Source: Immundisolibacter cernigliae (lineage in GTDB: Bacteria; Pseudomonadota; Gammaproteobacteria; Immundisolibacterales; Immundisolibacteraceae). From it: a stretch of 64,000 bases of DNA. This document shows positions 19,791 through 40,964 of this stretch, piece by piece. The notes beneath the pieces are model-generated. The model worked only from the letters and a program-made list of their open reading frames with translations, was not told where the DNA came from and did not search any database. Each line of letters opens with the position of its first letter. Position 1 is the first letter of the stretch. The translations under genes were made by a program, and so were the position numbers. Where the stretch lies: contig NZ_CP014671.1 in NCBI RefSeq assembly GCF_001697225.1, positions 3,038,001 through 3,102,000 on the forward strand. The letters run 5' to 3'.

Positions 19791-19894
19791 GGATTCAGTC
19801 GGCGCGTCACGAGGGCTGACGGCCCCGACAGTGCTGCATGGCGCGCTCGGCGCAGGCATCATCGTGGGCCGGAATCCTCACGCGGAGCCTGCCC

Positions 19895-21761
<1,867 letters not shown>

Positions 21762-21862
21762 TGGCGCCATGATCTGAAAATGCCGGGTGGTCAGGAGCAC
21801 CCGGCCCCGGCCAGGGGCTGCGACAGACGGCCCCGGCAGTGTCTCCTGGAGGAGATTTGCCC

Positions 21863-23077
21863 ATGAACAGTCCCGCCAACCTCAACCCGCGGCCGTTTGC
21901 GCCACGTTATCCGCAGCTGGGCACCGGGCCGGTGCCGGTCAGCACGGCGGTCGATCCGGCGTTCTTCGAGCTGGAGCGCGAGCGCATCTTTCGCGGCATG
22001 TGGGTCAACCTGATCCTGCGCGAGGAGGATCTGCCCAAGCCCGGCGACTATTTCGTGCGCTACCTGGAAGCCCAGGGCGCCTCCATCCTGGTGGTGCGCG
22101 GCGACGACGGCAAACTGCGGGCCTTCCACAACGTCTGCACGCACCGCGGCAACCAGGTGGCGGAGGAGGGCGCCGGACACTGTAAGGGATTCCAGTGCAA
22201 CTTTCACGGCTGGACCTTCGACACCCGCGGCCGGCTGGCCTTCGTCACCGACGAACAGCGCTTCCACAACCTGGACAAATCCGCGCTCGGCCTGCCGGCG
22301 GTGCATCTGGACACCTGGCGTGGCTTCATCTTCGTGAACCTGGCCAAGCGTCCGGCGCAGACGCTGGAGCTGGCCATGGCCGAGTTCAACCAGGACCTGA
22401 AACCGTTTCCGTTCGAGCAGATGGTGCTGGCCGGTCGCTATCGCTACGCCGTCAATGCCAACTGGAAGGTGACCATGAACGCCTTTCAGGAGTCCTATCA
22501 CGGCGCCTTCGTGCACAAGCTGTCGGTGGGCCAGTGCATCAGCCCGGAAGACCCGTACCTGGCCGTGCAGCGCATCAAGCTGCAGGAAAACGGCAACCAG
22601 TCCGTGTCCGTCCACCTGGCGCCGCACGAGCTCAGCCCAGCCGAGAAGCTGGCCTTCGGTTTCGGCGCCACCTTCACGCAGGGTGGCGGTGCGGCGCAGG
22701 CTTTCCCCGGTACCGCGCAGGCGCAGGTGCGCGACTGGGGCTTCGACCTGAACATCATCTTTCCCTACTCGCGCATCAACGTCGGCGCCGGCTGGTATTA
22801 CGTGGACGCCTTCTGGCCGGTGGCGCACGACAAGACGGTGTACGAGCTGGCCTATTACTTCCCGATGCCGCAGCGGGCCTCGGAAATGATCAGTCAGGAA
22901 TACAGCAAGATCGTGCTGCGGGACCTGTCGCGCGAGGACCTGGCCACCAACGAGGCCACGCACCGCTCGCTGCGCTCGGGCGCCATCCGGCAGATGAACC
23001 TGTCCGACCAGGAAATCGCCGTGCGCCACCTGTACCACACGGTCGCCGCCCGCTGCGGCAAGGAGCTGGCGAAATGA
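21863..23077 (+). CDS. Rieske aromatic oxygenase, alpha subunit without beta partner
   Basis: Protein of 404 residues. Rieske ligands C92, H94, C112 and H115; the catalytic site has the ESYHGAFVH pattern. A very strong ribosome site (GGAGGAG) precedes the ATG at 21863. No beta-subunit gene follows; instead a 120-residue gene overlaps the stop by four bases. This suggests an alpha-only (alpha3) oxygenase or one with a non-classical small partner. Ferredoxin and reductase must come from elsewhere. Substrate unknown; the neighbouring hydrolase hints at a ring-fission pathway. Confidence 0.87.
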   Translation: MNSPANLNPRPFAPRYPQLGTGPVPVSTAVDPAFFELERERIFRGMWVNLILREEDLPKPGDYFVRYLEAQGASILVVRGDDGKLRAFHNVCTHRGNQVAEEGAGHCKGFQCNFHGWTFDTRGRLAFVTDEQRFHNLDKSALGLPAVHLDTWRGFIFVNLAKRPAQTLELAMAEFNQDLKPFPFEQMVLAGRYRYAVNANWKVTMNAFQESYHGAFVHKLSVGQCISPEDPYLAVQRIKLQENGNQSVSVHLAPHELSPAEKLAFGFGATFTQGGGAAQAFPGTAQAQVRDWGFDLNIIFPYSRINVGAGWYYVDAFWPVAHDKTVYELAYYFPMPQRASEMISQEYSKIVLRDLSREDLATNEATHRSLRSGAIRQMNLSDQEIAVRHLYHTVAARCGKELAK

Positions 23078-23436
23078 GCGTCGCGACCGCGTTGCCAAAG
23101 CCGTTCACGCACCTGGAATCCTGGCTGCCCTTTGCGCTGCCCAGCGAAGACGCACGCATGCGCCGCCGTCTGTCGGGCTCAATGGACGAGTTGCTTGGCC
23201 TTTACAAGGCGCTGGTAGGCGAAATGCCGGCCATCGCCGCGCATCTGGATCAATGGCCCCTGGCCGAATTGCCGGCCGAGCAAAAGCCGCTGCTGTACCT
23301 GGCGCTGTCGTTCATGGAATCGGCCATGGCCGTGGAGGCCTTCCACCAGCCCGGACCACCGCACGCCACCACGCCCGAAAGCATGGTGGTGTTTCCGGGG
23401 CGGGCCGAGGCGCTGTTGAGTCAGGAAAACACCTGA
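23074..23436 (+). CDS. Small conserved-looking hypothetical protein coupled to Rieske oxygenase
   Basis: Protein of 120 residues, no family recognised and no cysteine cluster, signal or membrane segment. The sequence is mildly acidic and predicted mostly helical (for example the ARMRRRLSGSMDELLGLYKA region). The ATG overlaps the Rieske stop codon (ATGA), so the two are made together. A role as accessory subunit or chaperone for the oxygenase is inference from coupling only. Confidence 0.6.
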   Translation: MSVATALPKPFTHLESWLPFALPSEDARMRRRLSGSMDELLGLYKALVGEMPAIAAHLDQWPLAELPAEQKPLLYLALSFMESAMAVEAFHQPGPPHATTPESMVVFPGRAEALLSQENT

Positions 23437-23486
23437 CATATCCAGCGTTTCCCACAGCACCTGCCGCAATAAGCCATCGAAAAACT

Positions 23487-23575
23487 GTAGGAGCCCGGCT
23501 ATGCCGGGCGATCCTCGCGCTGTAGGAGCCCGGCTGTGCCGGGCGATATCGCGCAGCGAAGCTGCGCTCCTACAC
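23487..23575. repeat. Tandem GGAGCCCGGCT-TGCCGGGCGAT repeats
   Basis: Two direct units, 23487-23512 and 23521-23575, the second followed by a second hairpin GCGCAGCGAAGCTGCGC. They lie in the convergent gap between the 120-residue gene and the hydratase-lyase. The arrangement resembles REP/BIME elements, and the stem-loops could also block read-through from both sides. Confidence 0.7.
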
Positions 23576-23651
23576 GGTATTCACAGTTGCCGGACGCCGA
23601 GACCCGCCGCAGGCCCGGGCGTCCGCGCCCCGCGCCGTTGGCCAGAGCCGC

Positions 23652-24473
23652 TCAGACGTCCCGCTTGAGCTCGTAGGATTGCAGGCCGGGCTTGAACTCG
23701 CGCTTCTTGAACGAGACCAGCGCCGTGCGCACCCAGTCGTCGTTGGTCTCGCGGGACAGTTCCCACATCTTGGCCATTTCGTAGTCGATGGCGACCTCGA
23801 AATCCATGTCCAGCACCTTCTCGTAGACCTCCTTGGTCTTGCCGAGCACGACGCGGCCCAGGCGCGTCAGCATCTTGACCACGCGGTCGGTCTCGGCGTC
23901 CAGCTGCGCCAGCGGCACGGATTTGGTGGCGTAGCCCAGGTCGTGCGCCCGCTTGCCGGTGAAGGTCTCGCCGGTCAGGGCGTAGTACAGCGCCTTCTTG
24001 CGCGACGGCATGTTGTTGGCGTAGGCCCAGGTGGTGCCGCCGCCGGGAAAGATGCCGAAGTTGATTTCGGACAGGCCCCAGGTCGACTCGTCGGCGGCGA
24101 TCACGATGTCCAGCACACCGGCCAGGGCCATGCCGCCGCCAAAGCACCAGCCGTTGACCTTGCCGATGGTGACGGCGGAGATTTTCTTGATGCGCGTGAA
24201 CCAGCCGAACGCGTTCGTGTTGATCTCGGCCATCAGTTCGGGTTTGTCGAAGGGCTCGAGGAAGCACTGTTCGAGGTCCATGCCGGCGCAAAACGCGTCG
24301 CCCGCACCGGTCAGCACGATCACCTTGCAGCGGGCCTTTTCGATCTCGTCCAGCACCTTGCACATTTCCGCATGCAGCGTGGGGCTCATGCAGTTGCGCT
24401 TTTCCGGCCGGTTGAAGGTGACGTAGGCCGCGTTGTCCCGGATGTCTAGCAGGACGGTCTGATAGGTGCTCAT
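23652..24473 (-). CDS. p-Hydroxycinnamoyl-CoA hydratase/lyase-like enoyl-CoA hydratase
   Basis: Crotonase-superfamily protein of 273 residues closely resembling feruloyl/4-coumaroyl-CoA hydratase-lyase, which converts hydroxycinnamoyl-CoA to the benzaldehyde plus acetyl-CoA. Supporting features are CAGMDL, the oxyanion region CFGGGMALAG and a Glu in WGLSEINFGIFPGG (E136) where the family has its catalytic acid. AAGGAG precedes the ATG at 24473. It is divergent from ubiD. No CoA ligase for the substrate is seen nearby; aldehyde dehydrogenases at 33.5 and 41 kb could handle the product. A related ring-cleavage enoyl hydratase is the alternative. Confidence 0.75.
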   Translation of the reverse strand: MSTYQTVLLDIRDNAAYVTFNRPEKRNCMSPTLHAEMCKVLDEIEKARCKVIVLTGAGDAFCAGMDLEQCFLEPFDKPELMAEINTNAFGWFTRIKKISAVTIGKVNGWCFGGGMALAGVLDIVIAADESTWGLSEINFGIFPGGGTTWAYANNMPSRKKALYYALTGETFTGKRAHDLGYATKSVPLAQLDAETDRVVKMLTRLGRVVLGKTKEVYEKVLDMDFEVAIDYEMAKMWELSRETNDDWVRTALVSFKKREFKPGLQSYELKRDV

Positions 24474-24571
24474 GGTTCTCCTTCCAGTTTTGTCGTTGGT
24501 AAGCGGGCGATCGGCGCCGCCCCGGCGTCGGCGACACACGCGGTTTTCCAGATGCGCTACCGCGTCGCTAA

Positions 24572-24587
24572 TTTAACATTCGTTTAA
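24572..24587. promoter_or_regulatory. AT-rich imperfect palindrome in the hydratase-lyase/ubiD divergent promoter
   Basis: TTTAACATTCGTTTAA stands out as AT-rich in a GC-rich 299-bp gap between divergent genes. Its half-sites TTAAC and GTTTAA are nearly inverted. It could be an operator or part of a promoter. No regulator is encoded beside it. Confidence 0.3.
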
Positions 24588-24772
24588 GTGCCTTCGCAGG
24601 GCGAAAACCGCTTGTGCGCGCTCGTGGGCAGGGCTATAACGAACCAACGTCGGGCCTGAACGTGTCAGGCCCCGGCCGGCCGTTAATTTGCGGCCAGCAA
24701 CGCAAGAAGCGCTGCTCTGGATCCATGGAGGATGCCAACCAACCGAACCCTACAAGCACCCGGAGGAGAGAC

Positions 24773-26242
24773 ATGGACCAGACCACCACCCAACCCACCC
24801 ACACCGGCCTGATGGACTTTCGCGCCTGGATCAACGAGCTGGAGCGCACCGGCCACCTGGTGAAAATCGCCGACGAAATCGACCCGCAGACCGAGGCCGG
24901 CGCCATCATGCGCCTGGCCAACGAGCGCCAGTCCCCGGCGCAGTGGTTCACCAATCTGAAAGGCGCCATGCCCGGATCGAGCCTGCTGGGCGGGCCGTTC
25001 GCCACCAAGGAACGCATCGCGGTCGCCTTCGGCCTGCCGCCGGACACGCCGTATTCGGTGCTGACCGACGTGTTCGCCGATGCCCTGCACGGCAAGCGCA
25101 TCAAGCCGGTGATCGTGCCGACCGGCAGCTGCCAGGAGAACGTGCTGCTCGGCGACGACGTCGATCTGGACCTGTTGCCGGTGGCCAAGCTGCATCCGCA
25201 GGACGGTGGGCCGTACATCGGTACGCTGAACATCGGCGTGTGCAAGGACTTCGACACCGACTGGGTGAACTGGGGCACCTACCGCGGCATGAAGCACGAC
25301 AAGAAAAGCACCGGCCTGTGGCTGGGTCCGCTGAACCAGGGCGGGCAAATCCTCAAGAAATACCGCGCCGCGGACAAGGTGATGGAATACGCCATGTTCT
25401 TTGGCGGCGATCCGATGCACAACATCGTGGCGTCCTCCAGCGTGCCGCCCGGCGTGTCGGAAGTGGACGTGGTCGGCGGCATCCGCGGCGAGCCGGTCAA
25501 GCTGGTCAAGTGCAAGACGGTGGACCTGTACGTGCCGGCGAACGCCGAAATCGTGCTGGAAGGCACCGTCAGCCCCGGCGATGAGAAGGAAGAAGGACCG
25601 TTCGGCGAATACCCCGGTTACGTCGTTTCCGGCACCAACGCCCGGCCGGTGTTCCGCCTGACGGCGCTGACCTACCGCAACAACCCCATCCTGCCGGCCA
25701 CCTGCCTTGGCGTGCCGGTGGACGACGCCGTCATGTGGGTGCTGGAAGTCGCCGCCAGCGTCAAGGAAGCCCTGCGCACCAAGGGCGTGCCGATCATCGA
25801 CGTGGCGGTGCCGGAGTTCAGCGGCTGTCACGCGGTGGTGGTGTCCACCAAGACGCCGCACGCCGGCATCCCGCAATTGATTTCGAGCATCAGCTGGGCC
25901 GACCGCAACGCCAGCTACTTCCCGTACGTGATCGTGGTGGACGAGGACATCGATCCCTGGAACCTGGGCGAGGTGTTCCACGCCATGTGCACCAAGTGCA
26001 ACCCGGTGCGCGACATCCACATCCACCCCGGCTACATCAACAGCCCGCTGACGCCGTACATCGCTGGCCATCCGCTGCGCGAACTGGGCGCCGGTGGCGG
26101 CAACGTGCTGCTGGACTGCACCTGGCCGATCGAGTGGAAGGCCGAGCAGCGGCCGCACCGCCTGGCCTTCAAGAACACCTATCCGGAAGCCGTGAAGGAC
26201 AAGGTACTGGCCAACTTCGCGCGCTGGGGCTTGCAGCGATAG
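24773..26242 (+). CDS. UbiD-family (de)carboxylase
   Basis: Protein of 489 residues in the UbiD family, whose members use prenylated FMN to decarboxylate or carboxylate aromatic and unsaturated acids. The conserved EGPFGEYPGYV region and PHAGIP segment are present. ATG at 24773 follows GGAGGAG; upstream in-frame ATGs lie in non-conserved sequence. The cofactor-making UbiX partner is not in the window. Position among aromatic genes favours a phenolic-acid decarboxylase over ubiquinone synthesis, but this is inference. Confidence 0.85.
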   Translation: MDQTTTQPTHTGLMDFRAWINELERTGHLVKIADEIDPQTEAGAIMRLANERQSPAQWFTNLKGAMPGSSLLGGPFATKERIAVAFGLPPDTPYSVLTDVFADALHGKRIKPVIVPTGSCQENVLLGDDVDLDLLPVAKLHPQDGGPYIGTLNIGVCKDFDTDWVNWGTYRGMKHDKKSTGLWLGPLNQGGQILKKYRAADKVMEYAMFFGGDPMHNIVASSSVPPGVSEVDVVGGIRGEPVKLVKCKTVDLYVPANAEIVLEGTVSPGDEKEEGPFGEYPGYVVSGTNARPVFRLTALTYRNNPILPATCLGVPVDDAVMWVLEVAASVKEALRTKGVPIIDVAVPEFSGCHAVVVSTKTPHAGIPQLISSISWADRNASYFPYVIVVDEDIDPWNLGEVFHAMCTKCNPVRDIHIHPGYINSPLTPYIAGHPLRELGAGGGNVLLDCTWPIEWKAEQRPHRLAFKNTYPEAVKDKVLANFARWGLQR

Positions 26243-28185: not shown

Positions 28186-28770
28186 GATTCTCCTTGTGGG
28201 CGAACCCCGCCCGATTGCGGGCAAGCATGGTAATCGCTGCACGCCGGATCCGCCGCCAGCCATTCCCTGCGCAGCAATAAGGGGTGCGTCTGTTCGTCGG
28301 CCTGCGGCGTGACACCACCGCGTATCCCGTACGACCGGTCAAGGTTCACGAGGGCAGGCTTGGATTTCCCGGCGCCCGCCACCTGGAAAGACCTGGCAGG
28401 AGCGCAGCTGCGCTGCGCGATGATCGCCCGGCGGAGCCGGGCTCCTACAGTGCGTAGGTGCAATATGGCGCAGCCCCGTTGCACCGAATGGAGCCATCAT
28501 ACGGCGCATGCCTTGCGGTTATGGCGCCCTACGCGGGCTGTGGTCGGGTGGCGCTTGCCGTGAACGTAGATGTATCGTTTCACCCACGGAGCGCACGCGC
28601 GATCGGTACACTGGCTGAAGGGCTTCAGCCGGATACGATCTCGAAACTGATCGAGCATACCGGGCAACCGGGACGCCGAAGGATCGACAGGAGAAGTGTT
28701 CATGTGCAGGTCCAGCTTATCGGATAGGGTGAACTTTATGAATCATAAGGTTGGCGCATGACGCCCAGAT
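28186..28770. other. Intergenic region with dispersed repeats
   Basis: No convincing gene in this stretch. It holds an inverted copy of the GCCCGGC-type composite repeat (28371-28449), whose tail matches the eda-downstream copy, directly followed by a copy (28453-28507) of the GTAGG-TGCAATA repeat seen at 14261. If an integron integrase had once stood here, nothing recognisable remains. Confidence 0.55.
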
Positions 28771-28778
28771 TACCGGAC

Positions 28779-28829
28779 ATGTCTGATAACACATTTATTC
28801 CGACAAATGTCGGATAACTTACGTTAGAC
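28779..28829. promoter_or_regulatory. Candidate recombination site (attI-like or attC end) at left edge of cassette
   Basis: Two direct repeats ATGTC(T/G)GATAAC at 28779-28790 and 28807-28818 are followed by GTTAGAC at 28823-28829, which fits the integron core GTTRRRY. A perfect palindrome TCCGACA-AA-TGTCGGA overlaps (28799-28814). Direct repeats beside a core site recall integrase-binding sites in attI, but no RYYYAAC partner for a full attC is evident and no intI gene is nearby. Confidence 0.4.
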
Positions 28830-28850
28830 AGCACAGAGAATCCTATTGCC

Positions 28851-29546
28851 ATGTCTGCAAATCGCAAGCGGCCGACAAACCACTATCTTACGCTGCATTA
28901 CACTGTTGTATTGATTCTTTACATTTCCGCATTTGGGATCGCTTATGCACTTCTGTCCATTCCCGCAGCCCACCGAGATTTCATGGTTTCTCTCTCCAGT
29001 GCCGCAATCCTAGCCACGTTCGGCTCCGCAATTGCTACGGTCGGTTCGCTCTGGACTGGTGATCATGCTAGTCGCATCGCTCTCAATGTGGACATTCTAT
29101 TTCGAGATATACTGAAGCAGGAAGCGTGGCGTCGCTGGCCATTTCTTCTTCGCGGCGGGACTCGACGCTTGTTTGGTGGCGACGTTCAGCATGTCGAGTT
29201 GCACAATCCAAAGATTACCCTCAACGTAGGCTCTCACGAGATTGATGTCACCGTTCCAACAGTGCAGGATGATTTCTTTGATCTCCCGCTTTTTCACAAC
29301 TTGGTCCCCTTATTTCGCTTCAGCAGAGCTGCGCATACAACCATTGTAAATTCAGCAAAAGATGACGTTTTCCCTAAGAACAATCTTAAACCGATGGATC
29401 AGTACTTCGCGTACGAATGCCTGGCACAGATTTGGTATAGCGTATTGATCTTCCGCACTGCAAGATATGTTGTGCATTTTGGTGCTGCGCTTACAATCGC
29501 TAGCGCACTCATTGGCGGAGCTGCCGCTTTCGCAAGTGCAGTCTAA
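28851..29546 (+). CDS. Integron-cassette hypothetical membrane protein
   Basis: Protein of 231 residues of unknown family. Two hydrophobic segments near the N-terminus (about residues 17-37 and 47-67) and one at the C-terminus (about 206-228) flank a soluble middle region. AT-rich codon use differs sharply from the chromosome. The stop codon TAA lies inside the first box of the attC site, a common layout in gene cassettes. Start ATG at 28851 is 22 bases after the core site GTTAGAC, leaving the short 5' leader typical of cassettes. Function unknown; it is next to an OLD-type nuclease, so a defence role is possible. Confidence 0.65.
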   Translation: MSANRKRPTNHYLTLHYTVVLILYISAFGIAYALLSIPAAHRDFMVSLSSAAILATFGSAIATVGSLWTGDHASRIALNVDILFRDILKQEAWRRWPFLLRGGTRRLFGGDVQHVELHNPKITLNVGSHEIDVTVPTVQDDFFDLPLFHNLVPLFRFSRAAHTTIVNSAKDDVFPKNNLKPMDQYFAYECLAQIWYSVLIFRTARYVVHFGAALTIASALIGGAAAFASAV

Positions 29547-29630
29547 CTATGTGCTCAACCGGTCCGTCGGGGACATGTTACGTTCAAACCAAACCATCTC
29601 GGCCCTTGGCCGGTTAGCACGGCGTTGGGC
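29541..29630 (+). other. Integron attC recombination site
   Basis: The 90-bp site has an outer box GTCTAAC (29541-29547, RYYYAAC) paired with GTTGGGC (29624-29630, GTTRRRY). The inner boxes are GTGCTCAACCGG (29551-29562) and CCGGTTAGCAC (29610-29620). They pair perfectly except for one unpaired C at 29556, the extrahelical base that directs strand choice in attC folding. Both spacers between outer and inner boxes are three bases. This geometry is specific to integron cassettes and unlikely by chance. Confidence 0.85.
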
Positions 29631-29663
29631 ACCGCACCCAGCTAACACTGATTCCAATCACCT

Positions 29664-30771
29664 GGCGTTCTCAAATCCGAAGTGCAACACAGTTTTCAAT
29701 GAAGGCTGGGTGAAGGTTGATGAGCATTGGCCAGGGTCTGCGCGAAGACCTGCAGCGGCGTTTGCCAGTCGTGAATCGCCCGGGGTCGGGTCTTGAGGCT
29801 GTCGGCGATGGCATCGAGTTCGGCTTGCGTGTGGATCGACAGGTCAGTGCCCTTGGGCAAGTATTGGCGCAGCAGCCCGTTGGTGTTCTCGCAGGTGCCG
29901 CGCTGCCACGGGCTGTGGGGGTCGCAGAAGTAGACCTTCACGCCCGTCTGCGCGGCCAGCTCGGCGTGTCTGGCCATCTCCTTGCCCTGGTCATAGGTAA
30001 GGCTCTGGCGCAGCGGTGCGGCGATCGAATTCAGCTTGGCAGAAAAGCCTGCCAGTGCCGAGGCCGCCGTAGCATCACTCATCTTGGCCAACAGCACCAA
30101 GCGGCTGGTGCGCTCGACCAAGACGCCCACCGAAGATTGGTTGCCCGCGCCCTTGATGAAGTCGCCCTCCCAGTGGCCGGGCATCACCCGGTCGTTGACC
30201 TCGGGCGGACGCACGTGAATGCTGACCATCGCAGGAATCCGGCCGCGCCGATCGGCGCCGCGCGTGCGCGGCAGGCGCGTGCTGCGACCGTGGCGCAGGC
30301 AGGCGATCAGCTGGCGGCGCAGTTCGCCACGCGGCTGGGCGTAGATCGCGGTGTAGATCGTTTCGTGGGACACGTGGCGTTGCGCCTCGTTGGGGTAGAC
30401 GCGTTTGAGGGTAGCGGCAATCTGCTGCGGGGACCATTTCCAGTCCAGTAAGGTGCGCACGATGCCCCAGGACACGGAGTGCGCACTGAGCTTGCGCGGT
30501 GGCCGGGCGGCGACCCGCCGTGCGGTGCGCAGCCCGTGGGCGGCTTCACTGGTGTAGCCCGCGTCGGGCGAGTGGTTGCGGGCCAACTCGCGGCTGATCG
30601 TGGAGGGCGAGCGCTCCAGTGTGCGGGCCATGGCCCGCACACTGGCCCCCAGCCGTGTCATGCCGGCCATGACGACCCGATCCTCAGGCCGCAGTTGCGT
30701 ATACGAACGTTTTTTTTCCATGGCAACACCTTACTCCGGGTGAGGTGTTGCACTTCAAACTTGAAACCGCC
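29664..30771 (-). mobile_element. IS30-family insertion sequence, complete
   Basis: A 1108-bp element bounded by imperfect inverted repeats of about 27 bp (outer end GGCG, inner end GAAGTGCAACAC), with a 3-bp target duplication CCT at 29661-29663 and 30772-30774. It carries one full transposase gene. It inserted between the attC site and the OLD-like gene, so it separates that gene from its upstream cassette boundary. A remnant of a related element lies at 11266-11332. Confidence 0.92.
29696..30721 (-). CDS. IS30-family transposase
   Basis: Transposase of 341 residues: N-terminal helix-turn-helix regions (EDRVVMAGM, then SPSTISRELARN) and a C-terminal integrase-like catalytic core with HWEGDFI (first Asp), LTYDQGKE (second Asp) and SPWQRGTCENTNGLLRQY (the acidic residue in CENTNG). 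Frame intact. Confidence 0.93.
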   Translation of the reverse strand: MEKKRSYTQLRPEDRVVMAGMTRLGASVRAMARTLERSPSTISRELARNHSPDAGYTSEAAHGLRTARRVAARPPRKLSAHSVSWGIVRTLLDWKWSPQQIAATLKRVYPNEAQRHVSHETIYTAIYAQPRGELRRQLIACLRHGRSTRLPRTRGADRRGRIPAMVSIHVRPPEVNDRVMPGHWEGDFIKGAGNQSSVGVLVERTSRLVLLAKMSDATAASALAGFSAKLNSIAAPLRQSLTYDQGKEMARHAELAAQTGVKVYFCDPHSPWQRGTCENTNGLLRQYLPKGTDLSIHTQAELDAIADSLKTRPRAIHDWQTPLQVFAQTLANAHQPSPSLH

Positions 30772-30798
30772 CCTCAATATTTTCTGGAGCAAACCCGC

Positions 30799-32115
30799 AT
30801 GAGTTCAATCTCTAAAGGCGATCTTGTCTTTCAACCTAGTTTGGCGGATTTCTCGGCGCAGCGAGCAGACAAAGCGCTCACAGTCCTTGCGGGAGCCAAC
30901 AATTCCGGCAAAAGCCTTGTACTCAAGTGGTTGAAGCAAACTCTTGGTCGCGTCGCCTATATGGTTGGGACAAATCGCTTCTATCACGTCTATCACTTCA
31001 GCACGGGCATCCGCGATCCGAATCAGGTGGATCAGTTTGAAAACCAGTTCAACAGCCAGTTCCATCAAGAGCAATACAACTACGAGCAGAACTTTCTCGA
31101 TCTCAACGGCATAATCGTCGGGCTTAGTAACAAACAGCGCTCAGCGCTGTTTGATCTTTGCAGTCAGCTCATCGGATCAACGTTCTCGCTAAAAAAGGTG
31201 GATGAAGAAAATGAGTTGAGTAATCGCTACATCGATATGGATGGCCAAAATCTGAGTGTTGGAAGTACTGGCACTCGTCTCTTGATGACTATCCTGGGTA
31301 TTTGCATGGATGATAGGTACAGCTCAATCCTGATCGACGAACCTGAGTTAGGGCTTGGGCCAAAAGTACAGCAAGCGCTTTCCTCGTTTCTACAGGACAC
31401 CGCGGAACGAAAGAAGTGTTTTCCTCATCTCAATCGGGTGTTTCTCGCTACGCATTCCCACCTGTTTCTTAGCAGAGATGACATCTCCAACAACTTCATC
31501 ATTTCAAAGAACGGGAAGAACATATGCCTGACTCAGGTAAATTCAATCTCTGACTTCCACCGTCTCCAGTTCAACTTGCTTGGCAACTCTCTTGAGTCAA
31601 TGTTCTTTCCCTCGGTGATCGTCGTAGTCGAAGGCAAAACCGATCATGAATACATTGAGCGAGTCCTTCAACTAAAGTTTCCGGGCCGCCGAATTACAGT
31701 AATTCCATCTGGGGGAGACGTTAAGAGGAAAGTGGCCGGACTTCGTGAGGCATTTGGCGACCTGATGAAGAGCCCGTTCCGTAGCCGACTATTTGTTGTT
31801 CTTGATAAGGTTCATCAACCCGGACTGGTTGCAGAATTACAGGAAATGGGCGTGCCAACGGACAATGTCGTTCGCTGGGAAAAAAACGGCATCGAATATG
31901 TTTACCCGAGTTCGCTCTTAGTGAGTGTCTTTTCGTGTGGAGAATCGCTATTGCAGGCGCTGTCGATTAGTGGTGACGTCATCACGTTGAACGGTATTTC
32001 AAAGACAAAAAATGCACTGAAGGACGAGATACTCAAGGGGCTTGACTCAAGTACTCCATTGCCGAGCGAATTGGAGATAAAACTGCTCGCGAAAGTTACG
32101 GTGGCCATTGAATAA
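30799..32115 (+). CDS. OLD-family ATPase/TOPRIM nuclease, likely defence gene
   Basis: Protein of 438 residues. The ABC-type ATPase half has Walker A GANNSGKS (32-39), a signature-like SVGSTGTR (153-160), Walker B LIDEPE (D180, E181) and H219 in ATHS. The TOPRIM half has VVEGKTD (E278) and VVLDK (D336). OLD nucleases cut DNA and several act in phage defence. Here the usual DxD is DKV, so the second acidic residue is missing and nuclease activity is uncertain. ATG at 30799 follows TGGAG. The gene is AT-rich, lies 25 bp after the IS30 element, and is followed by GCCCAAC (32121-32127), a possible attC box, so it is probably a second cassette. Confidence 0.75.
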   Translation: MSSISKGDLVFQPSLADFSAQRADKALTVLAGANNSGKSLVLKWLKQTLGRVAYMVGTNRFYHVYHFSTGIRDPNQVDQFENQFNSQFHQEQYNYEQNFLDLNGIIVGLSNKQRSALFDLCSQLIGSTFSLKKVDEENELSNRYIDMDGQNLSVGSTGTRLLMTILGICMDDRYSSILIDEPELGLGPKVQQALSSFLQDTAERKKCFPHLNRVFLATHSHLFLSRDDISNNFIISKNGKNICLTQVNSISDFHRLQFNLLGNSLESMFFPSVIVVVEGKTDHEYIERVLQLKFPGRRITVIPSGGDVKRKVAGLREAFGDLMKSPFRSRLFVVLDKVHQPGLVAELQEMGVPTDNVVRWEKNGIEYVYPSSLLVSVFSCGESLLQALSISGDVITLNGISKTKNALKDEILKGLDSSTPLPSELEIKLLAKVTVAIE

Positions 32116-32493
32116 GCGGTGCCCAACCCATCGTTCCAGCGAGCAAGGGTGGGCAAAGCACAGCGTGCCCACGCGGTTTTAGGATTTGGCAGATACACGG
32201 ACTTGGCCCGTTTGCCCCACGGGCCACACAAACACGATTCAACACGCCGGCAAAAAAACGCAACCTCAATTGCGAACGTCGGAGTCTCCCAATAATGAGC
32301 AAGCGTAGCCTGGATGGAGCGCAGCGGAATCCGGGGTGATGAGGCAGCCGGTTTCCCGTATTGCGCTGCGCTGCATACGGGCTACCAACGCTCAGGCATT
32401 CGGCCCGAGGGCGGGCCTCCCACAGGCCAGGGCTCCGCTCGCTACAAAACCCTTCAGGTGGCGCGCGATCGTTAACTCGGCTCTGCGCGCCGC
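32116..32493. other. Intergenic region with attC-like box and dispersed repeats
   Basis: No gene seen. GCCCAAC at 32121-32127, six bases after the OLD-like stop codon, fits the RYYYAAC box of attC, but I find no matching GTTRRRY within the next 150 bp. A hairpin repeat GTGGGCA/TGCCCAC starts at 32149, perhaps replacing the rest of the site. At 32305-32336 is a GTAGCC-GGATGGAGCGCAGCGGAATCCGGG-type repeat common in proteobacterial intergenic DNA. The C-terminal fragment of the aldehyde dehydrogenase follows. Confidence 0.5.
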
Positions 32494-33531: not shown

Positions 33532-33644
33532 GCGGACACCTCCCGATCAACCGCTTTCCCGTCCCCTGCCAGCTCCCGGAACACCTCGCGCGCCAGCAGC
33601 AGCGGGGACCGAGACGGAACTATATGATGATCCGGGATGGAACA
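32565..33644 (-). mobile_element. IS481-family insertion sequence, complete
   Basis: A 1080-bp element with inverted repeats starting TGT (TGTCACGTCCCGG at the left, TGTTCCATCCCGG reading in from the right) and 6-bp target duplications TGTAGG at 32559-32564 and 33645-33650. It inserted into the 3' end of an aldehyde dehydrogenase gene in the same orientation. Clean ends and duplications suggest a recent event. Confidence 0.93.
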
Positions 33645-35055
33645 TGTAGGCAGCCAGGGCCTCGGCGCCGTTCTCTCGCCCGATGCCGCTGGCCTTGTAG
33701 CCACCGAAAGGCGCCAGGTACGACACGGCCCGGTAGGTATTGACCCACACGGTGCCGGCGGCGAGCGCGTCGGACATTTCAAGCGCGCGGCGCAGGTTCT
33801 GCGTCCACACGCCGGCGGCCAGGCCGTAGTCGGAGTCGTTGGCGATGCGGATGGCCTCGTCCTGGTCGCCAAAGCGCAGCACGGACATGACCGGGCCGAA
33901 GACTTCCTCGCGAGCGATGCGCATGTCGTTGGTCACGTCCGCAAAGATGGTCGGCTGCACGAACAGGCCCTTGCCGCCGGCCGGGTGCGGGGCCGGGCCG
34001 CCGCCGAGTACGCAGCGGGCGCCTTCGGCCCTGGCGATTTCGATGTAGGAGAGGATTTTTTCGTACTGCGGGCGGGTGGTGACGGGGCCGACCTGCGTGG
34101 CCAGATCGGCCGGGTCGCCCAGTTTGGCGCGCCCGGCGAAGGCGACCAGGCGCTCGACGAAAGCGTCGTGGATGCTGTCCTCGACCAGCACGCGCGAGCC
34201 GGCGAGACAGGTCTGCCCGGTGGCGGCGAAGATGCCGGCGATGACGCCCTTGACCGCCTGGTCGAGGTCGGCGTCCGCAAACACGATGTTGGGCGACTTG
34301 CCGCCCAGTTCCAGCGTGGCGGGGATGAGGCGCTCGGCGGCGGCCTTGTACACGCCGCGCCCGCCGGACTCGCCGCCGGTGAAGGCGACCTTGGCGACCT
34401 TCGGATGCGCCACCAGCGGCACGCCGACTTCGGCTCCAAAGCCGGTCACCACGTTCAGCACGCCGGGCGGGAAGCCGACTTCGTCGAAGATGCGCGCCAG
34501 TGCGATGGAGGAGGCGGACGTGAACTCGGACGGCTTGAGCACCACCGTGTTGCCGGCGGCCAGCGCCGGGGCGAGCTTCCACGTCGCCAGCATGAGCGGC
34601 GAGTTCCACGGCGTGATGGCGGCGATCACGCCCAGCGGCTCCGGCCGCGTGTAGACCGTGACGTCGGGCTTGTCGATGGGGATGACGCGGCCTTCCAGGT
34701 TCTCGGCGAGACCCGCGTAGTAGCGGTACCAGGACGGCAGGTAGCGCGCTTGACCGCCGGTTTCGGCAATCAGCTTGCCGTTGTCGCGGGTTTCGATTTG
34801 GGCCAGCTCGCCGGCGGCCTGCTCCAGGCGATCGGCCAGGGCGCGCAGCAGGCCGGCGCGGTAGGCGGGTTTGCTGCGGCCCCAGCCGCTTTCGAATGCA
34901 GTTCGGGCCGCAGCCACGGCGGCATCCACGTCCGCCGGCCCGCCGCGGGCGATCTGTGCCCACGGTTCCAGCGTGTAGGGGTTTTCCGTTTCGAACCACT
35001 CGCCGCCGGCGGCGTCGCGGAACTGGCCGGCGATGTAGAGGGGAAAGCGCTGCAT
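33547..35055 (-). pseudogene. NAD(P)-dependent aldehyde dehydrogenase, 3' end cut off by IS481
   Basis: The body of an aldehyde dehydrogenase of about 491 original residues. Catalytic C283 (GQTCLAGSR) and E249 (LELGGKSPN) and the cofactor-binding region (PWNSPL to FTGG) are intact. After Y470 the frame enters the IS481 element and ends with 32 unrelated residues at 33547, replacing the conserved 21-residue C-terminus, which in this family takes part in subunit contacts. It may be inactive or unstable. It follows the cupin gene on the same strand, 97 bp downstream, so the two may form an operon. Confidence 0.85.
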
Positions 35056-35152
35056 GGGGTGCTCCGTACGGGTGGCGCCGTCGGAGGGGTCGGACGCGAC
35101 ACCGCGGCGACGGGCGAATGCCTGCCCGACCTTCTCGTCGAGCGGGTTCAGG

Positions 35153-35806
35153 TTACTTGACGCGCGCGGTCATGGCCTCGCCGGGCGGCCGGGCGTTCAG
35201 GCCGGCTTCGCCGACCACCTCGAACTGCCCAGTCTCGACGGCCTTCTTCTGGCCCCAGGACCAGTGGATGTGCACGCCGTTGGTACGGTCGTAGCGGTTC
35301 TGGATGATGCTGGCCAGGGAATGGCAGCGCACGGCCAGCTCGATGGAGTCGTCGCTTTCCGGGTACAGCTCGTGGGCCACGCCGGGCGGCGAGCAGTCCA
35401 CATCACCCGGCCCCATGACGATCTCGTCGATCTTGCGCAGGCGCACCTTGCCGGTGGCCGGGTCCACGCCGTCCTGCGTCCAGTGCACCAGGCGCAGCTT
35501 GCCGGCCACCTGCACGTTGATGGCCCAGCAGGCACCGTGGTCGTGCGGCTCGCGGTAGCCGATCTTGGACGAGTGCACGCCCATGATGCCCAGCCCCGGA
35601 TCCGTCATGCTGCCGTAGAGGTCGGGATTCTCGCCGGTCGCGGCGCCCAGGGCGGCCAGCAGCTGGGGATCGGCGACGGCTTTTTTCATCACGGCGGCCA
35701 GTTGCTCCATTACCCCGGGCCGGTGCGCGTCGTCGCCGGCGATGCGCAGCATTTCGTCCAGCATGGCCTGCATGGCCGGCGGTTGGCTTTTGGTTGGTGC
35801 GTTCAT
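35153..35806 (-). CDS. Cupin protein, cysteine-dioxygenase-like
   Basis: Single-cupin protein of 217 residues. The first cupin motif contains EPHDHGACWAINVQVAG and the second VAHELYPESDD, giving metal-binding His residues in an arrangement similar to thiol (cysteine) dioxygenases, which oxidise thiols to sulfinates. GAGGAG precedes the ATG at 35806. Its downstream neighbour is the disrupted aldehyde dehydrogenase. Substrate unknown; assignment to thiol dioxygenases is by motif resemblance only. Confidence 0.65.
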   Translation of the reverse strand: MNAPTKSQPPAMQAMLDEMLRIAGDDAHRPGVMEQLAAVMKKAVADPQLLAALGAATGENPDLYGSMTDPGLGIMGVHSSKIGYREPHDHGACWAINVQVAGKLRLVHWTQDGVDPATGKVRLRKIDEIVMGPGDVDCSPPGVAHELYPESDDSIELAVRCHSLASIIQNRYDRTNGVHIHWSWGQKKAVETGQFEVVGEAGLNARPPGEAMTARVK

Positions 35807-36071
35807 TGGTTTGTCTCCTCGTCATCGATCGGGGTGCGGATGCGCCTGCGGGCAACGATAGCACCCGGTCGGCAGCCGAGATCGGGCTGTGCCGCGTCAT
35901 TGATGGTCGAACGCCGGGACGGTCCGGATGTCATCGATCCGCAACGGAACTGCCACCGGCCGGTCACACCAGGGTCACGGTTTCGAAAAGTGCGGCCCCG
36001 ATAGTTGGCTTCGGATGCCTTGGGCGTCCACCCACCAATCACGCCTTCGGGCACGCCTTCGGGGAGCAACG

Positions 36072-37352
36072 ATGCAAAAGACACTATTTTCTCGATTCAC
36101 GGGCGCGCTGTTTGCGGCCGGCTGCCTGTTCAGTGCCGTGCTGCACGCCGCCGGGCCGGCTGACGACCTTCAGGGCCCGCTGTCGGCGTTCGGCAAGCCG
36201 GACCTGCGTGCCAACGTTCAGGTGGGGCCGCGACCGTTTTATCTGGTCGCGGGCATGGACGAGGGCGCCCTGAAGTCGAAATTGAAGCGCTGTGCGGACG
36301 GGCCGTTCCGGCGTTCGGATTTTTCGATCGGCCATCGCGGTGCGGGGCTGCAGATTCCGGAACACACCAAGGAATCGTACGAGGCGGCGGCCCGGATGGG
36401 CGCCGGCATCGTCGAATGCGATGTGACGTTCACCAGCGATGGCGCGCTGGTGTGCCGCCACGCGGAATGCGACCTGCACACGACGACCAACATCGTTGCC
36501 ACCGATCTGAACAGCAAGTGCTCGGTGCCGTACAGCGGGCCCGGATCGTCGCCGAAGTGCTGCACCAGCGACATCACGCTGGCCGAGTTCCGGACGCTCA
36601 CCGGCAAGATGGACGCCAGCAACCCGGCGGCGACGGATGCGCAGGGCTACCTGGGCGGTACTGCCGACTGGCGCACGGACCTGTACACCGGGCGCGGCAC
36701 GCTGATGACGCTGGACGAGAGCATCGCGCTGAACCAGCGGCTTGGCGTCAAGCACACGCCGGAACTCAAGGGCGGCGATCCGGCGCGCATTGCGGCGGTA
36801 TTCGGCGGCCAGGCGCAGTACGCGCAGGCGTTGATCGACCACCTGCAGGCGGCGGGTGTCCGCCCGCGTGACGCCTGGCCGCAGTCGTTCGACCTGGCCG
36901 ACGTGCTGTACTGGATTCACAACGCGCCGGCCTATGGCCGCCAGGCGGTCTACCTGGTGGACTACGATCCGGCCGCGAAGGACACGCTGCCGCCGCTGCC
37001 GCTGGCGACGCTTGAGTCGCTCAAGGCCCAGGGCGTGAAGATCATCGCCCCGCCGATGCCGGCCCTGCTGGCGGTGGATGCCGAAGGCCGCATCGTGCCA
37101 TCGGCGCTGGCGAACGAGCTCAAGCGCCTCGGTTTCGACATCATCACCTGGACTTTCGAGCGCTCGGACCTGCGCCAGGGCGCGTCGAAAGCGGGCTTCT
37201 ACTACGCCTTCGATCCCGAGGGCCGGGCGATCGCCAAGGACAGCGACATGTACAAGGCGCTCGACGTGCTGGCCAAGCGCGTAGGCGTGCTGGGCATTTT
37301 CTCCGACTGGCCGGGCACGGTGACCTATTACGCCAACTGCATGGGTCTTTGA
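36072..37352 (+). CDS. Secreted glycerophosphodiester phosphodiesterase
   Basis: Protein of 426 residues with an N-terminal signal peptide (hydrophobic stretch ending near VLHAAGPA), so probably periplasmic. The GDPD domain shows the HRGAGLQIPEHTKESY catalytic region, then GIVECDVTFTSDG and CRHAECDL, and a C-terminal WTFERSDL. It hydrolyses glycerophosphodiesters to glycerol 3-phosphate and an alcohol. ATG at 36072 follows GGGGAGC; the frame is open upstream but the signal peptide fixes this start. Longer than classical GlpQ, with cysteine-containing insertions before the TIM-barrel end. Confidence 0.85.
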   Translation: MQKTLFSRFTGALFAAGCLFSAVLHAAGPADDLQGPLSAFGKPDLRANVQVGPRPFYLVAGMDEGALKSKLKRCADGPFRRSDFSIGHRGAGLQIPEHTKESYEAAARMGAGIVECDVTFTSDGALVCRHAECDLHTTTNIVATDLNSKCSVPYSGPGSSPKCCTSDITLAEFRTLTGKMDASNPAATDAQGYLGGTADWRTDLYTGRGTLMTLDESIALNQRLGVKHTPELKGGDPARIAAVFGGQAQYAQALIDHLQAAGVRPRDAWPQSFDLADVLYWIHNAPAYGRQAVYLVDYDPAAKDTLPPLPLATLESLKAQGVKIIAPPMPALLAVDAEGRIVPSALANELKRLGFDIITWTFERSDLRQGASKAGFYYAFDPEGRAIAKDSDMYKALDVLAKRVGVLGIFSDWPGTVTYYANCMGL

Positions 37353-37374
37353 GAAGCCGGCGCGGGGCACACAC

Positions 37375-37605
37375 AGCGCGACGTGGCAACCTTGCCTTTG
37401 GTCTGTCGGGGCGTATCGGCTGGCTGGAAAGGCAAGGTCCTCACGTCGCTGCGCTCCTCAGGACGACGGGGTGTTGGTGAGATGCGGCGGCGGCGCAGCG
37501 TGGACAGCGCGCCCTGACCGTCGACATACAAACGCCCTCACCCCGTCGTTGCGAGGAGCGCACCGCGCGACGTGGCAACCTTGCCTTTGGTCTGCCGGGG
37601 GCGTG
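37375..37605. repeat. REP/BIME-like cluster
   Basis: Three units: GCGACGTGGCAACCTTGCC (37379-37397) continuing to 37412, an inverted unit at 37428-37472, and a direct unit at 37539-37605 (CCCGTCGTTGCGAGGAGCGC and the same GCGACGTGG tail). They fill the gap between the convergent phosphodiesterase and LLM genes. Such elements are common near gene ends and may stabilise or terminate transcripts. Confidence 0.7.
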
Positions 37606-37637
37606 CCGGCTGGAATGCGCCGCCCCGCGTCACGTCC

Positions 37638-38708
37638 TCAAGTGAAGTGCGGCATCACCTTGTCGGCAAACAGGCGCATGGAATTGCTGACCTTGTCGTG
37701 CGGCATGGCGCCGACGTTGGTCCACAGGATGATGTCCTGCAGGCCGACCTCGTCGCGCAGGCGGGTGATGCGCTCGATGGCTTCCTCGGGACTGCCGAAG
37801 ATGGCCAGCTCGCGGCAAACGAAGTCGTAGTTCAGGTCCTTGGTCAGCTCGCCCAGCTGCAGATAGCCCTTGTAGCTGTCCGGGAACTGGGCATGCTTTT
37901 CCTGCAGGCGGCCCATCATCTCGCCCATCATCACGCCGATGATGTCGTAGTAGCTCATCATGGCTTTTTCCACGTCACGCCGGGCGCGGTCGCCGTCGCT
38001 GTCGATGTACACCGGCAGCAGCACCGGCAGGCGGAACTTCGAGGCGTCTCGCTGGTACTTGGCCAGAGCCGCCTTGTAGCCGCCCACGGCCTGCTTGAGC
38101 TGCTCCAGCGGCAGCACCTGCGCCGGCAGGAACAGGTTGAAGCCGTACTCGCCGGCAAGATCGAAGGTGTCCGGGCTGAAGGCCGACACGAAAGTCGGCA
38201 GGGTCGGCTTTTGCACCGGCTTGGGCACCACGCGCACCCGGTCGATGCTGTTGAACTTGCCGTTGAAGCTGAATTCCTCCTCGGTCCAGGCCAGGCGGAT
38301 GATGTCCAGGTGCTCCCGGAACAGTGCCTTGGACTGGTCGATGTCGATGTTGAAATGGTCGTAGATGCCGGTCATCGGGTGGCCGCGGCCGATGCCCCAG
38401 TCGACGCGGCCGCCGGACAGGATGTCCAGCGTGGCGAGCTCTTCGGCCAGGCGCAGCGGCTGGTTGATCGGCAGCACGGAAATGCCCATGCCCAGACGAA
38501 TGCGTTTGGTGACCTGGCTGGCGGCGGCGGCCAGCAGCAGCGGTGCCGGCAGAATCGAATAGGCGCGCTGGAAGTGCAGTTCGGCCAGCCACAGGCAGTC
38601 GTAGCCCAGTTCGTCGGCCAGGCAGAACTGGTCCAGGTGCTCCTGGTAGAGCTCGGCGTCGCTGCGATCGGCGGCGCCCTGCATCTCGTAAAACAGACCG
38701 AATTTCAT
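37638..38708 (-). CDS. LLM-class flavin-dependent oxidoreductase
   Basis: Bacterial-luciferase-like monooxygenase of 356 residues. Typical features: MKFGLFYEMQ start, DCLWLAELHF segment, a SGGRVDWGIGRG motif and a central TFVSAFSPDTFD region. Members use reduced flavin and O2 on substrates such as aldehydes, alkanes and sulfonates, or F420. It is divergent from the diiron-oxidase/Rieske operon, sharing a 176-bp promoter region, so it may belong to the same pathway. No flavin reductase partner is seen. Confidence 0.85.
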   Translation of the reverse strand: MKFGLFYEMQGAADRSDAELYQEHLDQFCLADELGYDCLWLAELHFQRAYSILPAPLLLAAAASQVTKRIRLGMGISVLPINQPLRLAEELATLDILSGGRVDWGIGRGHPMTGIYDHFNIDIDQSKALFREHLDIIRLAWTEEEFSFNGKFNSIDRVRVVPKPVQKPTLPTFVSAFSPDTFDLAGEYGFNLFLPAQVLPLEQLKQAVGGYKAALAKYQRDASKFRLPVLLPVYIDSDGDRARRDVEKAMMSYYDIIGVMMGEMMGRLQEKHAQFPDSYKGYLQLGELTKDLNYDFVCRELAIFGSPEEAIERITRLRDEVGLQDIILWTNVGAMPHDKVSNSMRLFADKVMPHFT

Positions 38709-38884
38709 GCCGGACCACTCCTTGGATTGGCGGCGCGCACGGCGCCGGCTTGGGGTTTTCTTGACTTGCGGGTGAACGCGGCGCGACCATGCGCGCATGG
38801 CTGACTGAACGTTCCGTGGGCGGCTATTCGACCACCGGTTGCCATGCGCCGTCCACGCACCCCAACACGCGCAGGAGAAACACA

Positions 38885-39604
38885 ATGAACCAGCAGGACA
38901 TCGTCGACCGCATTGCCGCCCGCTGCGTGGAGTCGGCCAACACCTGGCCGTGGCTGACCGGCAAGATGACGGTCGGCATGGCGCAGGCCTGGATGATCCA
39001 GCACTCCATCCGCAACCGCCAGTTCAGTGCCAGCTACCGCCCGGCCTGGATGAGCCGCTGCCCGGACCAGGCGGTGGTGCGCAAGACCATCGGCCAGATG
39101 CTCGAAGAACTGGTCTATGACGAGAACCTGAAGGCGCCGCACACCAAGATCCTGTTCGAGATGGCCCGTACGCTCGGCCTGACCGACAAGCAGCTGCACG
39201 ACGCCGTGCCCAACGCCAAGACCGACATCTGGCACCAGGTGACCGAGAACCTGTGCCGCAACCGGCACTGGATCATCGGCTGGCTGTCGACCTCGCTGGA
39301 AGAATTCGTGCTGACCGCCATCGACCGCGAGACCAACATCAGCGCCGACAAGTGGCAGAAGGACCTGGGCCTGACCGACGAACAGCTGTTCTTCTTCCGC
39401 TACCACGAGAAGGCGGACATGGAACACGCCGGCAAGGTCGTGTGGGCGCCGATCAAGCGTCACGTGACCACGCCGGAACTGGCCGCCGACGTACTGGCCG
39501 GTCTGGATACGGCGCTGGAAGCCTCGCGCATCTTCTACGAAGGCGTGATGGACCTGGCCGCCGAGCTCGACGCGCAGGGCGTCAAGCTGCCGACCGCTGC
39601 TTGA
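38885..39604 (+). CDS. Haem-oxygenase-like diiron oxidase (TenA/PqqC superfamily)
   Basis: All-helical protein of 239 residues. Candidate iron ligands are E74/E75 (MLEELVYDE), H86, E139/E140 (STSLEEF) and the H174-x3-D178-x2-H181 motif, which together match haem-oxygenase-like diiron oxidases such as UndA and CADD rather than TenA thiaminases. These enzymes use O2 for decarboxylation, N-oxygenation or C-C cleavage. CAGGAGA precedes the ATG. It is the first gene of a four-gene operon with a Rieske oxygenase, an aldehyde dehydrogenase and an alcohol dehydrogenase. Substrate unknown. Confidence 0.75.
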   Translation: MNQQDIVDRIAARCVESANTWPWLTGKMTVGMAQAWMIQHSIRNRQFSASYRPAWMSRCPDQAVVRKTIGQMLEELVYDENLKAPHTKILFEMARTLGLTDKQLHDAVPNAKTDIWHQVTENLCRNRHWIIGWLSTSLEEFVLTAIDRETNISADKWQKDLGLTDEQLFFFRYHEKADMEHAGKVVWAPIKRHVTTPELAADVLAGLDTALEASRIFYEGVMDLAAELDAQGVKLPTAA

Positions 39605-39632
39605 CCCACATCATCTCAGGAGCCCCGACGCC

Positions 39633-40823
39633 ATGAATGCCAACACCCAGTTCATCCAGGATCTGGTCACCTTCCCGGCCAAGACCAATGCCATCCCCAA
39701 GGCGCTCTACGAGAGCGCGGAGATCTATCAGCTGGAAATGGAACGGCTGTTCTACGGGCCGCACTGGCATCCGGTGGCGCACGTGGGCGAGATCCCGAAC
39801 GCCGGCGACTACAAGACCTTCTATATCGGCGAGGTGCCGATCCTGATCACGCGTCTGGAAGGCGGTGCCGTCGGCGTGTTCCACAACGCCTGCTCGCATC
39901 GCGGCACCATGCTGGTGCCCGAGGTGCGCGGCAACGCCGGCGAGTTCCAGTGCCCGTATCACCGCTGGCTGTTCGACAACGGCGGCAACCTGCGCGGCGT
40001 GCCGGGCGAGAACGATTTTCCGGAAGACTTCTGCAAGGCCGACTTCGGGCTGCGCAAGATTCGCTACGAGGTGTTCGCCGGCCTGGTGTTCGCCACCCTG
40101 GATGACCACGCGGCGCCGCTTTCGGAGCAGCTTGGCGAGATCGCGGCGCCGCTGGCCGCCTCGCTGGGTGGTGACGGCAGGCTCAAGCTGCTCGGCTACC
40201 AGAAGGTCATGTACAACGCCAACTGGAAGACTTACCGCGATCAGGACGGCTATCACCCGCCGCTGTTGCACGCCGCCTTCAAGATGCTCAACTGGCAGGG
40301 CGGCAAGGGCGAATGCACGATTTCCGAGAACGGCAATATCGCGCTGGTGTCGCAGCTGGCGGCGGTGCGAAACGCCGATTTCCTGAAGGACCCGAGCCTG
40401 GTCGAGTTCAAGGGCGTGGACCCGAGCCAGGGTTCGTACGTGGTCTGCCCGTCACTGGTATCGTTCGGCAGCAAGCATCTGGACATGTTCAATTTCCGCT
40501 TTGGCATTCCGCGTGGGCCGCTCAAGACCGAGGTCCACTGGGCCTACTTCTGCCACGAGGATGACGACGAGGAAATGATCCGCCATCGGCTGCGCCAGTC
40601 GTCCAACATGCTCGGCCCATCGGGCTTGGTCAGCCTGGAGGACGCGGCCGTGTTCCACCGCATCCAGAATGCGCTCAAGGCCGGCACACCCAATGCCTAC
40701 TTCATGAAGGGCGTGCGCAAGGACGCCGATCCATACAAGTCCGGCCAGAACGACGAGATCGCCAACATCGTCTGGTGGGAGTGGTACCGCAAGCAGATGG
40801 GTTTCAGCCGCGCCGCGGCCTGA
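39633..40823 (+). CDS. Rieske aromatic oxygenase, alpha subunit
   Basis: Protein of 396 residues with Rieske ligands C87, H89, C107 and H110 and catalytic-domain motif DQDGYHPPLLH. It begins 28 bases after the diiron oxidase stop with CAGGAG upstream. No beta subunit, ferredoxin or reductase gene accompanies it. The CPYHRW Rieske variant and PPLLH motif place it with oxygenases acting on aromatic acids, but the substrate is not determinable. Confidence 0.87.
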   Translation: MNANTQFIQDLVTFPAKTNAIPKALYESAEIYQLEMERLFYGPHWHPVAHVGEIPNAGDYKTFYIGEVPILITRLEGGAVGVFHNACSHRGTMLVPEVRGNAGEFQCPYHRWLFDNGGNLRGVPGENDFPEDFCKADFGLRKIRYEVFAGLVFATLDDHAAPLSEQLGEIAAPLAASLGGDGRLKLLGYQKVMYNANWKTYRDQDGYHPPLLHAAFKMLNWQGGKGECTISENGNIALVSQLAAVRNADFLKDPSLVEFKGVDPSQGSYVVCPSLVSFGSKHLDMFNFRFGIPRGPLKTEVHWAYFCHEDDDEEMIRHRLRQSSNMLGPSGLVSLEDAAVFHRIQNALKAGTPNAYFMKGVRKDADPYKSGQNDEIANIVWWEWYRKQMGFSRAAA

Positions 40824-40964
40824 AGCGGCGGCCTACAACGAAATAAGGTTTTTGCGGTCCTGCCAGGGCCGGTCGGGTGAAAACAGCCGCAGCTTCGTTT
40901 ACCGAGCTGCGAGCGGGCCTGGTCCGGTCCTGCGCATGGCCGCTCGTGTCGAGGAGAACACCGC

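Follow-up and report, generated by a model that had tools for sequence, protein, structure and literature searches.

Dispersed integron platforms with truncated integrase genes in Immundisolibacter cernigliae, and the probable exchange of their cassettes

Integrons with a dead integrase are usually regarded as frozen. The sedentary chromosomal integrons of Xanthomonas have had intI inactivated by deletion, frameshift or stop codon, with attI and cassettes kept, and strains that share one intI lesion usually hold identical arrays (PMC12444791). Formation of CALIN, that is, attC clusters with neither intI nor attI, by loss of intI has been proposed (PMC8618304), and 22% of intI-bearing genomes carry more than one intI (PMC9024848). 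Within the literature that we searched, outside which most subscription papers lie, we found no account of numerous truncated platforms whose cassettes go on being exchanged, nor any paper combining Immundisolibacter and integron. Here we describe a locus in a 64,000-nucleotide stretch of the Immundisolibacter cernigliae chromosome (the window; positions 3,038,001 to 3,102,000 of contig NZ_CP014671.1), which is a decayed integron platform and one of six in this genome.

Two cassettes, an attI site and an integrase stub

A sequence-only reading of the window had described a textbook attC site at 29541-29630 (plus strand), and the site is base for base as claimed. By direct reading, its outer boxes are GTCTAAC (29541-29547) and GTTGGGC (29624-29630), the inner arms GTGCT-C-AACCGG / CCGGTTAGCAC form 11 pairs with one extrahelical C, the spacers are 3 nt on each side, and a stop codon (TAA, 29544-29546) lies within the first box. 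This is the R''/L''/L'/R' architecture with an extrahelical base by which an integron gene cassette is recognised. Cassette 1 (28824-29624, plus strand, 801 bp) begins with TTAGAC, a start of the TTRRRY form. It is exactly complementary to the GTCTAA with which R'', the first attC box (GTCTAAC), opens, as expected if the cassette was linearised by IntI. It had been called AT-rich, which is true relative to its surroundings (65-68% GC) and not of the cassette itself, at 50% GC.

A box-plus-stem finder gave the site a score of 37.0, the highest in ∼120 kb (six 20-kb loci), and in 18 shuffles of these loci the score never reached 27. The site was also found, as the sequence-only reading had proposed to check, by a covariance model, in this case our own. 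Class relatives with intact intI, sought as a source of training attC, yielded two sites only; the model was trained on eight attC, two of which had one spacer base removed to hold register. With the site among the eight it scores 53.2 bits; with it left out, it scores 35.4 bits (E 7.5e-7), the second-best site in the 64-kb window having an E of 1.2. Across the modelled arms of the eight training sites, 83% of cells are paired, against 69% in shuffles, and 21 are compensatory, against 9. Single-strand folding of the region was not unusual relative to shuffles on either strand (z -0.8 and -1.4), and thus the evidence for the attC is its box architecture rather than its fold energy. An Rfam scan of 26-34 kb of the window gave no match, and a relaxed attC finder (AAC/GTT plus stem) was dropped, as it returned equally many matches in shuffled sequence.

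The predicted cassette gene exists at 28851-29546 (plus strand) and encodes an orphan protein of 231 aa. Pfam, NCBIfam and PADLOC searches give no family, no relative is found among 84,980 species contigs, plasmids or viral contigs, and 369 genomes of the class yield one weak match of 42 aa. An AlphaFold single-sequence model (pLDDT 48.8) was too poor for a fold search. The three membrane segments proposed for the protein are plausible from its sequence, and it is probably membrane-anchored.

It had further been claimed that no intI lies nearby. This is incorrect: a remnant of an integron integrase gene, comprising its N-terminal ∼40 codons, stands 120 bp from cassette 1, with a full attI between. 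Positions 1-40 of the integron-integrase model TIGR02249 match 28539-28658 on the minus strand (E 2.7e-4), and against a longer IntI N-terminus found in the same genus the fragment is 50% identical (E 1.3e-9). This ΔintI (28546-28703, minus strand) starts with an ATG at 28703, is divergent from cassette 1 and ends ∼40 codons on, at 28546, the 3' part of the gene being lost. The attI adjoining it (28704-28829, plus strand), which belongs to a family that we term A, is conserved in eight copies over two genomes, with identity between orthologs stopping at the core. It comprises an L box, GGATAAC (28812-28818), a TTAC spacer and the R core GTTAGAC (28823-28829), and crossover falls between 28823 and 28824 (G|TT). 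The GTTAGAC that had been noted ahead of the gene is therefore present, as the GTTRRRY crossover core of an attI such as an integron has beside its intI. The functional intI of a complete integron is lacking, ∼40 codons remaining at this locus.

The sequence-only reading had offered two origins for the cassette: an integrase-less cluster, or capture at a secondary (attG-like) chromosomal site. Either would suit a genome without functional intI, and the cassette does lack a functional integrase. Nevertheless, we regard a secondary site or a bare CALIN as highly improbable, since the DNA directly upstream (28546-28829) consists of ΔintI and an attI that is both repeated and conserved. A CALIN would have neither, and there is one intact attC only; an attG insertion would lie in non-integron DNA, and here the upstream DNA is a repeated attI module.

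The three codon positions of ΔintI in the eight copies give 0.835, 0.866 and 0.817, against 0.835 in adjacent non-coding DNA, indicating no constraint. On this ground, and because the copy at 196 kb carries frameshifts and stops, we rejected the idea that ΔintI is a small functional peptide. A simple scan of 28500-29700 for the cassette promoter Pc gave no sigma-70-like match; that a kept promoter is why the first ∼40 intI codons are always retained is no more than an idea, no consensus promoter having been found. The broken 3' side of intI abuts the end of a dispersed palindromic (REP-like) repeat at 28525-28545, CGCCCTACGCGGGCTGTGGTC, which by eye looks like the GCCCGCGTAGGGCGGAATAG repeats found next to RAYT-like genes, read in reverse. 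Another repeat, GCGCAGCTGCGCTGCGCGATGATCGCCCGGCGGAGCCGGGCTCC at 28361-28451, has dozens of copies in a relative of the same genus. Judged from the ORFs at 19838-26242 and 33547-42440, the platform sits within a catabolic gene cluster encoding Rieske oxygenases, a UbiD-like decarboxylase, aldehyde dehydrogenases and ring-cleavage-like enzymes, probably for aromatic degradation.

Cassette 2 (29625-32146, plus strand) starts with TTGGGC at 29625, complementing R'' (GCCCAAC, 32121-32127) of its own attC; the same complementarity holds in 7 of the 8 cassettes read in the genome. It is split by an IS30 element (29664-30768, minus strand, ends placed by eye) with a transposase at 29696-30721 (NCBIfam transpos_IS30, E 1.2e-91), and 36 bp of the element end recurs at genome position 840013. 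The gene of cassette 2 (30799-32115, plus strand) encodes an AAA ATPase/Toprim-like protein (Pfam AAA_21) that PADLOC matches to AriAB (E 1.1e-16) and Old (4.7e-12), suggesting similarity to the AriA/AriAB, OLD and GajA defence ATPases. Its attC is truncated (32121-32146, plus strand): by direct reading R'' and L'' are kept, and the 3' half, with L' and R', is lost and joined to a dispersed GGGTGGGCAAAGC repeat. Such cuts in the 3' half of the terminal attC occur in three arrays (32121-32160 of the window; genome 2823345; 31867-31920 of contig C1 of the relative G001), each joining a dispersed palindromic repeat (GGGTGGGCAAAGC... or GTAGCCTGGATGAAGCGC...), which would fit a preference of such repeats for the last attC, or a tolerance of them there.

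Truncated platforms across the chromosome

The chromosome is a single contig of 3,243,537 bases, and a profile search of this complete genome found no full-length intI, bearing out the earlier claim that a working integrase is absent. Apart from XerC and XerD, no protein matches the integron-integrase model over its full length. N-terminal intI fragments occur at six loci, at 196, 1700, 2797, 2826, 3066 (the window) and 3107 kb, and by reading keep ∼40 to 84 codons; their attI sites fall, also by reading, into families A (3066, 196 and 2797), B (1700 and 2826) and C (3107). When 398 genomes of the phylum were searched with the 64 residues of an IntI N-terminus, 82 matched, and besides the six of this genome none exceeds three matches, in a count that includes full genes. 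Six intI fragments without any full gene are unusual in this sample. A pattern scan for the attI module among named genomes gave no match.

A genome-wide scan with the covariance model found seven attC (E below 1e-4), and every one of them directly follows one of five ΔintI/attI loci on the downstream side; the scan found the site at 197209-197273 although this was outside the training set. The scan is heuristic, with 150 of ∼3,800 candidates scored, so attC may have been missed, and it did miss sites in contig C1 of the relative that are plain by reading. Each platform holds one or two foreign cassettes, with 36-55% GC in a region of 65-68% GC. Most cassette genes are orphans or defence-like; other cargo includes an aquaporin, a DUF6998 protein and proteins without family. 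At 2826 kb a cassette with a UvrD-like helicase ends at GTCTAAC and joins a repeat, its attC truncated. A repeat of ∼90 bp lies in the same orientation on both sides of that locus (2823253-2823345 and 2826903-2827035), and by reading, RAYT-like (REP-associated tyrosine transposase) genes with GCCCGCGTAGGGCGGAATAGCG repeats stand directly behind the last attC of two arrays (from genome 2799180 on, and at 3111150-3111700). We recognised no common terminal repeat of the platform module; repeats abut some copies, not all.

The family A copies are roughly equidistant (79-88% identity), suggesting one burst followed by neutral decay. The platforms at 3066 and 2797 kb depart from this at their attI ends, the last 68 bp being 97% alike (66/68), against 79% (165/210) upstream. 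We read these homogenised ends as a sign of exchange between platforms; in family A such exchange blurs orthology just ahead of the core.

Orthologous platforms with different cassettes

G001, a relative in the same genus, is a draft genome in which several platforms end at contig ends; it carries at least eight ΔintI/attI platforms. At the window locus the flanks, ΔintI and attI are 94% conserved between the two genomes and the cassette is not. Thus the comparison of cassette boundaries with related strains, suggested by the sequence-only reading, shows shared flanks and a different cassette, rather than a gene conserved along with its flanks.

The intI truncation junction lies inside the alignment at four orthologous pairs, 3066/C6, 2797/C13, 3107/C14 and 1700/C1 (position in kb/contig of G001). 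At all four, identity is 83-90% over the last 60 bp up to and including the G of G|TT, and 47-50% over the 230 bp beyond it, against 46-48% for shuffled sequence. At four platforms with a shared intI truncation, orthology therefore ends exactly at the G|TT of attI, and the sequence that follows is unrelated. Given the same truncation, different cassettes and breaks at G|TT, the cassettes have apparently been exchanged site-specifically after the local integrase died.

How could cassettes turn over at platforms that encode no integrase? We think it probable that the genome's six or more dispersed, integrase-dead platforms exchanged cassettes by IntI acting in trans after intI was lost in cis, and that family A spread already truncated. 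The local intI genes would have been cut first, before the two species diverged. IntI supplied in trans, from a since-lost copy or a visiting mobile integron, would have kept inserting and excising cassettes at attI by the ordinary attI x attC reaction. Family A would have spread chromosome-wide in a common ancestor as an already truncated module and then decayed neutrally. Reloading of the platforms by an integrase in trans is the most likely step, one that we infer from two genomes, one of them a draft. Its agent is hypothetical, because no such integrase was found in the complete genome, and none scored over the cut-off in the same-genus and same-family drafts.

An alternative that needs no integrase is that the ancestral arrays were longer, intI died, and each species then shed a different set of cassettes through slippage from one 7-bp core to another; the cores are short direct repeats, so that deletions between them would also leave G|TT junctions. 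Shared leftovers would be expected from such a history, yet no cassette is common to both species at any examined locus, and none of this genome's cassettes matches the G001 loci that we compared, beyond shared repeats. With the junction also at the core in 4 of 4 loci, we consider differential loss unlikely. Homologous recombination between platform copies could likewise swap cassettes with no site-specific recombinase, its right-hand crossover falling within repeats or IS elements. The homogenised attI ends at 3066 and 2797 kb, the repeats and IS that flank many platforms, and the 2826/C2 site, which family B occupies in one of the two species and family A in the second, all fit such swaps. 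However, 3107/C14, the only full copy of family C seen in either genome, also switches exactly at G|TT, as does 1700/C1 of family B, where direct reading shows attI orthology reaching to the core; moreover, no cassette occurs at two platforms. We judge this second alternative decidedly unlikely, and continue to favour exchange in trans. A more tentative proposal, which could well be true but which we hold with less confidence, is that these loci form a multi-platform integron, in which an intI stub and attI have spread through the chromosome as a repeat to give several docking sites. An integrase with its gene at none of these sites would load them, and cassettes would continue to turn over after every resident integrase had been lost.

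Several further observations come from the relative. Its C14 cassette holds, by reading, a HicB/HicA-like pair and an attC detected by the covariance model, and an IS30 now lies inside the intI stub there. Its C2 cassette encodes GmrSD_N and HEPN proteins; at this one chromosomal site (2826 kb; C2:4390 in G001), I. cernigliae has family B with the UvrD-helicase cassette and G001 has family A with the GmrSD_N/HEPN cassette. The flanks of the C3 platform of G001 match in I. cernigliae and the platform is absent, so platforms come or go. In an empty-site comparison with the genome G002, the permease has an IS beside it instead. Between two cassettes of the C3 platform, of family A, lies a ∼60-bp piece of family C attI (C3:311970-312030).

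If exchange in trans is upheld, integrase-dead attI platforms remain live docking sites, and surveys based on intI overlook them. The question of exchange becomes testable in a genus with two or more comparable genomes.

Comparison with known systems

The arrays resemble CALIN in holding cassettes without a functional integrase in cis (PMC8618304, PMC9024848), and differ in that attI and a 5' intI stub persist and in that they hold one or two attC only; under the threshold of two attC used for CALIN in the Xanthomonas study (PMC12444791), the window locus would be missed. Genomes with In0 or several integrons (PMC9024848) also have several intI loci, but with intact IntI genes, whereas all six here are N-terminal fragments. 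The attI fragment between cassettes at C3 of G001 recalls the Δ-attI-type cassettes (PMC12901181) and looks like the product of a recombination in which pieces of attI took part; those belong to mobile class 1 and 2 integrons with active IntI1, and what we have here is a sequence trace only. The Xanthomonas integrons (PMC12444791) are alike in being chromosomal, with intI dead, attI and cassettes retained and cassette functions mostly unknown. They have essentially one platform, beside ilvD, in contrast to the six or more described here, and the same lesion there usually goes with identical arrays, whereas here two species share the lesion and differ in their cassettes.
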